NCBI RefSeq assembly: GCF_023715605.1
Contig: NZ_JAMBOL010000011.1
Span: 62,001-126,000, forward strand
Direction: 5' to 3'
DNA from: Halalkalibacter oceani
GTDB lineage: Bacteria > Bacillota > Bacilli > Bacillales > Bacillaceae_D
DNA: 64,000 nt
A model generated the notes under the pieces. It searched no databases and was not told where the DNA came from. It was given only the letters and a program-made list of their open reading frames with translations. The translations under genes and the position numbers were made by a program. Position 1 is the stretch's first letter, and every line of letters begins with the position of its first letter. Shown here piece by piece: positions 8,756 through 63,872 of this stretch.

Positions 8756-9006
8756 ATCGTAAATAGAGCATATATAGGTAAAGCTGTGAAGGATCGAAGT
8801 AATCGTTGCTTCCCTGTTTTAGAGAGCTGATGGGTGGTGCGAATCAGTACACAGGCAACGATGAAATACAATCTGGAGCTTTCTTTGTGATAAGCAAAGA
8901 ACGGAACATTCCGTTATTGAAATGAAGTGGAAGAAGGCTGACTTCTTCAACAAGGGTGGTAACGCGACAACCTCGTCCCTTTTTTAGGGAGGAGGTTTTT
9001 TTCTGC
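8756..9006 (+). promoter_or_regulatory. tyrosine T-box leader of tyrS
   Basis: The stem I base pairs AAAGCT (near 8779) with AGCTTT (near 8876). The specifier loop reads GAAATACAA, with the Tyr codon TAC at 8867-8869. The T-box core GGGTGGTAACGCG lies at 8954-8966. It ends in a terminator with arms CCTCGTCCC and GGGAGGAGG followed by seven T (8970-9006). Uncharged tRNA-Tyr would pair with both regions and allow readthrough into tyrS. Confidence 0.93.
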
Positions 9007-25577: not shown

Positions 25578-25636
25578 AACGGTGGCTTCGTTCTGCGCGC
25601 GTCTGGAAGGAATGAACCCCCACTTTCCTTCCAGCC
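25578..25636 (+). repeat. intergenic repeat resembling 694-752
   Basis: CTGGAAGGAA (25603) and TTCCTTCCAG (25625) form a 10-base-pair hairpin. The whole 59-base stretch aligns with the motS terminator region, with shared GGCTTCG-TCTGC and CACTTTCCTTC. There is no T-run here, so it may have lost or never had terminator function. Confidence 0.6.
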
Positions 25637-25646
25637 TTAAAAAGAT

Positions 25647-25718
25647 GCGCGAACGTCGCCCGCTGCTTAGGGAGGATGAGCAAAAGGGAAAACAACCTTT
25701 TGTCTCATCCCCTTTTCG
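25647..25718 (+). terminator. yteJ terminator, part of an intergenic repeat family
   Basis: GGATGAG and AAAAGG pair with CCTTTT and CTCATCC (25674-25710), followed by CCTTTTCG. The CCGCTGCTTAGGG before it and the apex AAAAGG-GAAAACAA-CCTTTT resemble the elements at 35388 and 40644. Confidence 0.6.
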
Positions 25719-26999: not shown

Positions 27000-27032
27000 C
27001 CCGTTGTGAGTGGATGTCTCACAACGGGTTTG
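27000..27032 (+). terminator. hairpin after ytfJ
   Basis: CCCGTTGTGAG and CTCACAACGGG flank a seven-base loop, with a short T-run. The 40607 hairpin has the same TTGTGAG / CTCACAA core with its loop inverted (TGGAT against ATCCA). Confidence 0.6.
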
Positions 27033-27155
27033 TGGCAAAATGAAGCGCCGAGGTCGCCAGTGTCCAAATTCAGGATACTCTTTTGTTGTCAGCGGTTCCT
27101 TTTCTCGTGTAAGATAGGGATGTACATATTTCCAATCGAAAAAGGAGGAATCAGC

Positions 27156-27656
27156 ATGGCACAAGTGACGTTTAAAAACAATCCGATCACATTGCTGGGC
27201 AATGAAGTAAAAGTAGGAGAAAAGGCTCCTGATTTTACGGTACTTGCTAATGATTTATCTGAAGTAACACTCGCTTCAACTAGCGGTAAGGTGCGCCTTA
27301 TCAGTGTTGTTCCTTCCATTGACACAGGGGTGTGCGATCAGCAGACCCGTCGTTTTAATGAAGAAGCGGCAGGCTTGCCAAATGTCGAGATTCTAACAAT
27401 TAGCGTTGATTTACCGTTTGCGCAAAAGCGCTGGTGCGCCGCTGCCGGGATTGAGAATGTTCAAACGCTTTCTGATCATCGTGATCTTTCTTTCGGTCAA
27501 GCGTACGGTGTCGCGATTCAGGAGCTTCGCCTTTTAACAAGAGCCGTGTTTGTCGTTGATTCCTCTGATACGGTAACGTATGCAGAATATGTAGCAGAGG
27601 CTACAAATCATCCTGATTACGAAGCGGCGCTGGAAGCTGCAAAAGCAGCAAAGTAA
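27156..27656 (+). CDS. tpx: Tpx, thiol peroxidase
   Basis: Atypical 2-Cys peroxiredoxin that reduces hydroperoxides with thioredoxin. 166 residues, with peroxidatic Cys60 in [11 protein letters not shown] and resolving Cys94 in KRWCAAAG. Both are at family positions. Start ATG behind AAAGGAGG; an upstream in-frame extension runs through a terminator and is rejected. Followed by its own terminator. The order ytfJ-tpx-ytxK-ackA matches B. subtilis. Confidence 0.97.
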
Positions 27657-40480: not shown

Positions 40481-40551
40481 TCCTAAAGTCAAATAGCAGG
40501 GAATCAGGAGATGCCAGACTAGCAACGTTCGCGGCACGAGAAGAAGATCGA

Positions 40552-40591
40552 GCTTGAGACAAAACTAGCTTTTGGACCTATTGGCAATGGC
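40552..40591 (+). repeat. intergenic repeat block A, copy 1
   Basis: GCTTGAGACAAAACTAGCT followed after six bases by CCTATTGGCAATGGC. The same block occurs inverted at 42208-42241, without the six-base spacer and with one change in each part. The first 15 or so bases also recur at 5165-5181. Confidence 0.7.
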
Positions 40592-40599
40592 TTCACACG

Positions 40600-40643
40600 C
40601 CACAAGCCTGTTGTGAGAAATCCACTCACAACAGGCTTTCCAA
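40600..40643 (+). terminator. hairpin after ytoI
   Basis: AAGCCTGTTGTGAG pairs with CTCACAACAGGCTT (loop of seven), 14 base pairs, followed by TCC rather than a T-run. It sits between repeat blocks A and B. Confidence 0.5.
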
Positions 40644-40717
40644 AAAAAATCGTGGCGGTTCCGCTCATTGCGTAGAGACTGGAAAAAAGGTGAAAAACAA
40701 CCTTTTGTCCCAACCTC
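40644..40717 (+). repeat. intergenic repeat block B, copy 2
   Basis: Same length (74) and layout as 35388-35461: ATCGTGGCGG, CCGC, ATTGC, TAGAG, CTGGA, then a hairpin with apex AAAAGG-CCTTTT. Here the hairpin outer arms are less well paired and there is no T-run. Confidence 0.7.
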
Positions 40718-40775
40718 GGATGATCGGAGCGTTTTAGTTTCTCTCTTTCATTGGTCTCACGAAAGTGAGGAAAGA

Positions 40776-50566: not shown

Positions 50567-50570
50567 AGGA

Positions 50571-50612
50571 GAGGGTGTTCTAAAAGTGCTGGCTTTTGGG
50601 ACACCCTCTATG
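50571..50612 (+). terminator. accA terminator-like hairpin
   Basis: GAGGGTGT and AAAAG pair with CTTTT and ACACCCTC; only a weak T tail. A GAAAGCT / AGCTTTC hairpin follows near 50639. The CCGATTGGC-GCCGTCTCC stretch (50681) recurs near 58500. Confidence 0.5.
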
Positions 50613-62461: not shown

Positions 62462-63397
62462 ATGAGCGATGAAAACATTGTCGATTTAAATGAACGCCGT
62501 CCTAACGGAGAATGGCGTAAATATATTAAGCTTGCGGCAATTGCTGCTGTGTTAATTGCCATTTTGGCGATCATTATCAGCAACCTCTTCATTGTCGAAG
62601 AAGGCGAATATAAGGTAGTTAGACAGTTCGGGGAGGTCGTGCGGATCGAAGACGAGCCGGGATTAAACTATAAGCTGCCATTCATTCAATCGGTGACGAC
62701 ATTACCGAAATATCAGATGGTGTATGATATTCCTCCCGCTGAAATCAACACGCGTGATAAAAAGCGGATGCTCGCCGATCATTATGCGATTTGGAAAATT
62801 GACAACCCGCAAATGATGATCGCCAATGCCCGCACTTTGGAGCAGGCAGAAGCGATCATGGGTGAATTGATTTTCTCCGCGATTCGGGCGGAGCTCGGGC
62901 AGCTCGATTTTGATGAAATTATCAACGAAGAGATGACGCCGACTAGAGGAAACTTTAATGAACTCGTGCTTAACCGGGTGAATGAAGCTCTTGAACGAAA
63001 CAATTACGGCATTCTTTTAACGGATGTCAGAATGAAACGAACAGATTTACCTACTGAGAATGAAGAAGCGGTTTACCGCCGGATGATATCGGAACGTCAT
63101 TCGACAGCTCAGGAGTATTTGGCGCAAGGGGAAGCAGAAGCGAACCGGATTCAAGCCAATACCGACCGGGAAGTGAAAGAAATGATTGCGACGGCGACAG
63201 CAGACGCCAATGAAATCATCGGGGAAGGGGAAGCAGAAGCCGCGCGCATTTACAATGACGCATTCGGCCGCGACCCGGAATTTTACCAGCTGTACCGCAC
63301 TCTCCAATCCTATGAAACAACAATCGGCGACGACACCGTCATCGTACTACCGGCCGACTCCCCCTACGCCCGCATCCTGATGGGGTATATTGATTAA
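62462..63397 (+). CDS. hflC: HflC-like SPFH-domain protein
   Basis: 311 residues. A cytoplasmic start (about 20 residues), a membrane helix (about 21-44), SPFH domain (about 45-240) and a helical tail with GEAEANRIQANTDREVKEM and GEGEAEAARIYND. Paired with HflK. Ribosome site GAAGGAGG lies inside the end of hflK, so the two are coupled. A 17-base-pair inverted repeat begins one base after its stop. Confidence 0.92.
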   Translation: MSDENIVDLNERRPNGEWRKYIKLAAIAAVLIAILAIIISNLFIVEEGEYKVVRQFGEVVRIEDEPGLNYKLPFIQSVTTLPKYQMVYDIPPAEINTRDKKRMLADHYAIWKIDNPQMMIANARTLEQAEAIMGELIFSAIRAELGQLDFDEIINEEMTPTRGNFNELVLNRVNEALERNNYGILLTDVRMKRTDLPTENEEAVYRRMISERHSTAQEYLAQGEAEANRIQANTDREVKEMIATATADANEIIGEGEAEAARIYNDAFGRDPEFYQLYRTLQSYETTIGDDTVIVLPADSPYARILMGYID

Positions 63398-63442
63398 GAG
63401 TTTTTGCCAAAAGGGTGGTTTTTGCCCTTTTGGCAAAAACTC
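63398..63442 (+). repeat. 17-base-pair inverted repeat after hflC
   Basis: GAGTTTTTGCCAAAAGG (63398-63414) pairs perfectly with 63426-63442 across 11 bases. It starts one base after the hflC stop and has no T-run after it. Confidence 0.8.
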
Positions 63443-63562
63443 GAAGTAGTGAGCGAAGTCTGCGCGAGGGTTTAAAAGTCGCTACCGAAGCGGGTTTCTT
63501 CGGTAGCGACTTTGCGCAGAACGAAGCCACAACTAGCTTTGAGCCAAGGAAGAAAGGTTGGA
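63420..63562 (+). repeat. tandem duplication, unit 1
   Basis: A unit of about 143 bases containing GCCCTTTTGGCAAAAACTCG, the 16-base-pair stem AAAGTCGCTACCGAAG (63475-63490) with 63498-63513, and GAACGAAGCCACAACTAGC. Noncoding: overlapping frames are accidental products of the repeat. Confidence 0.85.
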
Positions 63563-63698
63563 TTTTGCCCTTTTGGCAAAAACTCGAAGTAGTGAGCGAA
63601 GTCTGCGCGAGGTTTTAAAAAGTCGCTACCGAAGGGGGTTTCTTCGGTAGCGACTTTGCGCAGAACGAAGCCACAACTAGCTTTGAGCCAAGGAATGG
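63563..63698 (+). repeat. tandem duplication, unit 2
   Basis: Second copy, one base longer to the hairpin (stem 63619-63634 with 63642-63657; loop GGGGTTT instead of CGGGTTT). The two copies are almost identical, so the duplication is recent. Confidence 0.85.
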
Positions 63699-63760
63699 TT
63701 TTTCCATGGCGCCAGGGCGGAGTCCTTGCCAAGGGAAAGGTTGGAGTTTTTCAAAATTCA

Positions 63761-63810
63761 GGGGCGTGTTAAAAGGAAAGCAAATCCTTTTGACACGCCC
63801 TCTTTTTCTC
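63761..63810 (+). terminator. terminator before polA
   Basis: GGGCGTGT and AAAAGGA pair with TCCTTTT and ACACGCCC, then TCTTTTTC. Ends hflKC transcription. Confidence 0.85.
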
Positions 63811-63834
63811 ATTTTTACGCGCCTATGCTACAAT
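63806..63834 (+). promoter_or_regulatory. promoter of polA
   Basis: TTCTCA, a 17-base spacer and TACAAT with an extended TGC. The -35 overlaps the T-run of the terminator. Confidence 0.6.
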
Positions 63835-63872
63835 AGAAGCAGCGAAAATTGAAACAGAGAGGAGCCTTTCGA

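Follow-up and report, generated by a model that had tools for sequence, protein, structure and literature searches.

BOX elements of Streptococcus pneumoniae are modular structured repeats with tandem internal units. The repeat reported here is likewise modular and structured and has tandem internal units, but by description it differs from BOX elements in sequence and host. The bcr1-bcr3 repeats of the Bacillus cereus group have been described as MITE-like (PMC3446304). They resemble the present repeat in being intergenic, roughly 150 bases long, high in copy number and often located in UTRs, and in having mobile-element features, whereas the host group and the hairpin-built architecture differ; the two are set apart by description, not by sequence. 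Bhal-1 and Bhal-2 of Bacillus halodurans, a related alkaliphile, are families of stem-loops with 74-76 bases and 36-50 copies (PMC2267715). They are also intergenic stem-loop repeats, and because the comparison is by description, they may even be identical to the repeat reported here.

IS1272 has been assigned to the IS1182 family. It replaces inverted repeats and leaves no target duplication, and a tandem duplication of its left-end sequence, with a unit of 25 bases, has been reported (PMC5678879). One subfamily of the present repeat resembles IS1272 in replacing an inverted repeat without target duplication, and its ends match those of an IS1182-family element of the genus. The repeat differs from IS1272 in that it has no transposase gene, carries an internal module (module B), and has a tandem unit of 143, not 25, bases. 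In a large survey, IS1182 elements were over-represented between convergent genes (PMC9208149), an enrichment that the present family shares.

We found no description of this repeat family in the literature, where coverage of subscription journals was thin. It is apparently an undescribed large family of structured non-autonomous mobile repeats, new relative to Bhal and bcr by description alone. The feature behind hflC of Halalkalibacter oceani probably represents one insertion of such a MITE-like, hairpin-built repeat, followed by local tandem duplication. The tandem duplication itself is an ordinary local event in an interesting family.

The doubled element between hflC and polA

The window is the whole stretch of DNA analysed, 64,000 nucleotides of the H. 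oceani assembly GCF_023715605.1 (G000; contig NZ_JAMBOL010000011.1, positions 62,001 to 126,000, forward strand). The features of the hflC-polA region are listed below in window positions, with bit scores from a covariance model of module B, designated R1.

62462..63397, + strand: hflC, 311 aa, upstream of the element; from the ORF listing, with orthologues in 13 genus genomes
63395-63397: hflC stop codon TAA
63398..63442, + strand: hairpin A, GAGTTTTTGCCAAAAGGG / CCCTTTTGGCAAAAACTC, left end of the element; its base 1 abuts the stop codon
63446..63533, + strand: module B copy 1; R1, 100.9 bits
63534..63552, + strand: unit 1, segment at its right end, TAGCTTTGAGCCAAGGAAG; matches the subfamily 2 right end in degenerate form
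63553..63585, + strand: start of unit 2, repeating the hairpin A loop and right arm; direct repeat, and inverted match to the first arm
63589..63677, + strand: module B copy 2, with terminal hairpin 63619-63657; R1, 96.3 bits
63678..63757, + strand: unit 2 right end, then what is left of a degenerate third unit, GCCAAGGGAAAGGTTGGAGTTTTT; weak local alignment
63761..63801, + strand: likely native hflKC terminator, a 17-bp hairpin followed by CTCTTTTTCTC, 3' of the element; kept in the sister species G007

The element is composed of hairpin A as its left end, the 88-base module B, and a short right end. Hairpin A is a perfect inverted repeat of 18 bp with a 9-base loop (63398-63415 / 63425-63442). 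The preliminary description had recognized this leading inverted repeat, but gave it as 17 bp beginning one base after the hflC stop; it starts directly after the stop. The first module B consists, in order, of an outer stem, a 3x3 GAA/GAA internal loop, a middle stem, a TTTAAA linker and the terminal hairpin at 63475-63513. The correspondence between TAGCTTTGAGCCAAGGAAG and the right end of subfamily 2, GCTAGTTTTGTCTCAAGCTC, is degenerate and was judged by eye. RNA folding of hairpin A together with unit 1 yielded a minimum free energy of -78.5 kcal/mol (z = -8.7), and none of 200 shuffles was as stable.

The tandem units are located at 63410-63552 and 63553-63696, with a start-to-start spacing of 143-144 bases. 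They are identical in 138 of 144 aligned columns, the differences being five substitutions and one indel, and in each, a perfectly paired stem of 16 bp closes a loop of 7 bases (63475-63513 and 63619-63657). The near-identical units of about 143 bases and the stem-loop in each are thus as first described. A trivial assembly duplicate was rejected as the source of the units because they differ at six alignment columns. The end of a third, degenerate unit at ~63728-63751 is weak, with a local alignment score of 14 that 0.6% of shuffles equal.

No T-run, the signature of an intrinsic terminator, follows 63442, 63513 or 63657. The hflKC terminator is likely the separate hairpin at 63761-63801, and thus the element sits between the gene and its terminator. 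The earlier statement that the stems are not plain terminators is borne out.

Three other observations concern the window. TATGCTACAAT at 63815-63840, before polA, is retained in most of the 13 genus genomes and is probably the -10 region of the polA promoter. The ORFs at 27005-27656 and 63472-63732 overlap copies or fragments of the repeat and are at risk of misannotation as genes. A T-box leader is present at 8777-8983 (Rfam RF00230, 147.6 bits).

A dispersed repeat family with a conserved fold

A search of the same genome with the first 155 bases revealed many partial matches on other contigs, with about 70-80% identity. The covariance model R1 of the 88-base module B was built on 18 copies and includes 32 base pairs. 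It detected 125 matches in this genome at E up to 1, and a closer search with the module B model at E up to 0.001 detected 122 matches in 78 loci. A genome search for the stem had been proposed in the preliminary description, and the unit turns out to be a genome-wide repeat. The elements are intergenic, short (about 150-180 bases), dispersed and without coding capacity, as is characteristic of MITEs.

All 32 base pairs of module B show changes on both sides. There were 939 doubly changed cells, compared with 303 in shuffles, and none of 500 shuffles reached the covariation score; the scores of slid controls collapsed to far lower values. The large alignment was fitted to the model and is biased towards it, and a model-free alignment of 18 sequences behaves alike. 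The 3x3 internal loop has the form G-N-A opposite G-R-A (GNA/GRA), and its closing G and A are kept in 93-96% of copies. The fold and this one internal loop are thus kept while the sequence varies, and a plain sequence search detects only part of the copies.

At the gathering threshold, no Rfam family matched the repeat. Matches at permissive thresholds were far below the family thresholds, mostly to eukaryotic miRNA models, and were discarded.

At least two further module B copies are present in the window, at 25579-25666 and 40584-40671, together with a deleted copy:

40550..40718, - strand: subfamily 2 copy with both ends; module B 40584-40671, R1, 62.5 bits
25579..25666, - strand: module B copy; R1, 51.4 bits
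19236..19320, + strand: deleted subfamily 3 copy, one base after a stop codon; retains hairpin A but, of module B, only the first part

The larger element around 25579..25666 is flanked on both sides by a 9-bp direct repeat, CTGGTAAAT. A solo hairpin with an 18-bp stem at 50570-50609, 3 bases after a stop codon and with neither a T-run nor module B, is possibly a leftover of such an element. Four identical copies (L143, L144, L145 and L147, on contigs C32, C38, C39 and C45 of G000) lie ~400 bases or less from contig ends, which suggests that they adjoin a long repeat that breaks the assembly.

Module B matches were observed in 12 of the 13 genus genomes and in one further genus of the family. 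Among 249 genomes drawn across the order, 8 have matches, with few to many copies each. The copies in other families have the same architecture and similar ends. This patchy distribution fits a mobile element. Plasmids and phages were also searched for the repeat; there were no matches, and a plasmid or phage origin was rejected. In a pattern scan of named genomes, most of the fifteen matches came from Halalkalibacter oceani P106. Those in Steroidobacteraceae, Burkholderiales, Halorientalis and other unrelated taxa are probable chance matches.

Subfamilies, nested insertions and the IS1182 family

Subfamilies 2 and 3 comprise some 20 and 18 loci, respectively, with closely similar sequence and differing flanks. 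The similarity extends from GAGGCTGGGACAAAA through TTTTGTCTCAAGCTC in subfamily 2, and from GAAGCTGCTGAAAAA through TTTTTCAGTGGCCTC in subfamily 3. Both have terminal inverted repeats, another MITE characteristic: GAGGCTGGGACAAAA / GAGCTTGAGACAAAA in subfamily 2 and GAAGCTGCTGAAAAA / GAGGCCACTGAAAAA in subfamily 3. In the copy behind hflC, these repeats are degenerate. Direct repeats of 8-9 bp are found exactly at the ends of subfamily 3 at six loci (L150, L158, L179, L194, L198 and L200). No target duplication was seen at the copy behind hflC or for subfamily 2.

High copy number, intergenic location and palindromic structure are also features of REP elements mobilized by RAYT, a Y1 transposase. 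This identity is very improbable and was rejected, since G000 contains no match to Y1_Tnp (PF01797). Conversely, G002 has 12 Y1_Tnp matches yet no elements, and neither the units of 90-180 bases nor the 8-9 bp target duplications of subfamily 3 agree with it.

Some copies are inserted in others. At L165 and L181, subfamily 2 is located exactly in place of the terminal hairpin of a host copy, with both host halves intact and without target duplication. This replacement of an inverted repeat, of the IS1182/IS1272 type, was observed in these two cases and for subfamily 2 only. At L177, L197, L198 and L200, subfamily 3 splits a subfamily 2 hairpin, both halves of which remain. The junction is identical at the four loci, so the composite may have formed once and then spread. 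Judging from these junctions, composites of subfamily 3 inside subfamily 2 may move as units.

The link to an autonomous element is observed for subfamily 2, not for subfamily 3. Locus L216 of the sister genome G003 encodes an IS1182-family transposase (NF033551, 416 bits against a cut-off of 270), and the ends of this insertion sequence are GGGGCTGGGACAAAA / GAGGCTGGGACAAAACTAGCTTT. GAGGCTGGGACAAAACTAGCTTT matches subfamily 2 at 20 of 23 bases at the right end and 18 of 23 at the left end; such shared ends with an autonomous element are a further MITE characteristic. The left end of the window copy matches the L216 element weakly, at 12 of 23 bases, and its link to the insertion sequence thus runs through the family. 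In the draft genome G000, the search for an IS1182-family gene with matching ends recovered nothing intact, only a weak fragment.

Dispersed copies, terminal inverted repeats, target duplications and nested insertions support one of the options first considered, a nested miniature element. These features, with the target duplications in one subfamily, and likewise the conserved structure and the patchiness, can be read from the sequences themselves; we infer the transposase and the mode of movement. The copies are likely to have moved in trans, with transposases supplied by other elements. For subfamilies with GRGGCTGGGACAAAA ends, an IS1182-family enzyme would exchange an existing hairpin for the element, as reported for IS1272. 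Such a mechanism would account for the preponderance of copies behind genes and within other copies, and for the many that have no target duplication. Module B is common to two different end types, and one transposase cannot readily explain all subfamilies. A bolder suggestion is that the folded module B must be recognized by the transposition system and has been acquired by two or more kinds of transposon that differ in their ends. We regard this as conceivable but doubtful. If it is true, the family hops from hairpin to hairpin, rewriting hairpins behind genes genome-wide.

Position behind genes and comparison of sister species

Among 111 copies with callable neighbours, the flanking genes are convergent for 40, tandem for 64 and divergent for 7, based on simple ORF calling and with arrays counted per copy. 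The elements are concentrated at gene 3' flanks and scarce in divergent promoter regions. Hairpin A in sense orientation starts close to a stop codon, at offsets from -4 to +6 bases, in 27 copies. Hairpins without module B in this window are located at more varied distances from stop codons. The stop-codon peak of hairpin A is sharper than insertion preference alone readily explains.

Tandem arrays are recurrent in this genome (18 of 67 chains analysed) and are also present in other families (L275 and L276). Each tandem unit combines module B with one half of hairpin A. A further copy of that half is present downstream in 8/18 arrays, a larger share than among single copies (6/49). After insertion, recombination or slippage between repeated half-hairpins would multiply the unit, and the composition of the unit is as expected from such a process. 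From these repeat structures, it would be the simplest origin of the hflC duplication.

The 13 genus genomes mostly have a terminator and about 90-300 bases between hflC and polA. G000 has hairpin A and two modules, and G007, whose HflC is 98% identical, has hairpin A alone with its pairing kept. Neither is present in G002. In G006, pieces of the terminator hairpin are duplicated and enclose a different, reversed module. The copy-number comparison, which had been proposed for strains and was made between species, thus finds the doubled module at hflC-polA in G000 only. In this sample of genomes, it is specific to G000 through either gain in G000 or loss in G007. Its absence from G007 agrees in one sense with the recent copying proposed in the preliminary description, as does the divergence between units, which at ~4% is below the roughly 10% by which resident copies differ between G000 and G007.

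At all 16 other loci tested, the G007 orthologue has a hairpin element or a remnant, sometimes of another subfamily. Among the G002 orthologues recovered for these loci, none has a hairpin element. One G007 copy (L265) is in reverse orientation and lacks the terminal hairpin, compared with its G000 orthologue L062.

In 15 orthologous modules of G000 and G007, paired and unpaired bases change at a similar rate, about 10%. There were 34 broken pairs versus 21 compensated ones, and 11 of the 21 were alignment shifts by inspection. An excess of broken pairs is expected for inserted copies that decay. Purifying selection on resident copies was rejected on the basis of this test. Structure that is conserved family-wide, but not strictly at resident copies, favours a need during spread over a need at each site.

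These data bear on the explanation that the repeat is a functional 3'-UTR RNA element, in which the folded transcript protects mRNA ends or is a site of processing or protein binding, copies being retained for their benefit to the preceding genes. The strong covariation of module B, the conserved closing G and A of its internal loop, and the sense-oriented hairpin A abutting stop codons argue for it, and about one in two of the comparable B. cereus bcr repeats is transcribed, with many located in UTRs (PMC3446304). However, orthologous copies break pairs more often than they compensate for them, with no slower change in paired bases. Copies occur on both strands and nested, and the strand preference in tandem contexts is not significant (38 versus 26, p = 0.17). 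The module is missing behind hflC in 11 of 13 species. We therefore consider an RNA element unlikely. A role specific to hflKC mRNA, one of the earlier suggestions, is not supported, as the module is behind hflC in only two of the 13 species and elsewhere behind many unrelated genes.

Some arms of hairpin A keep their pairing between the sister species through paired changes (at hflC and L161). Such concerted changes could result from selection on resident copies or from gene conversion. At L161 of G007, one and the same change is seen in both arms and in the downstream arm copy. At L254 and L266, module B is retained and hairpin A is unlike that of G000. Both observations would fit the view that arms, and likewise repeated hairpins, copy one another by template switching or gene conversion, a mutational process that keeps complementarity although the structure is not needed, the repeat being spread by recombination only. 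This explanation is quite unlikely. Copying from arm to arm would erase the purine-rich 3x3 internal loop, which is unpaired and conserved within a long stem, and the target duplications and hairpin replacement point to a transposase.

The insertion of a mobile repeat is thus the reading we retain for the feature behind hflC. What appeared to be a local oddity belongs to a large structured mobile repeat family in Bacillales that is absent from Rfam. Through its repeats, many genes have different 3' flanks in sister species. The nested cases would show in nature a mode of transposition, hairpin replacement, that few elements are known to use, and the family may offer a simple system for asking whether a transposase reads folded DNA.
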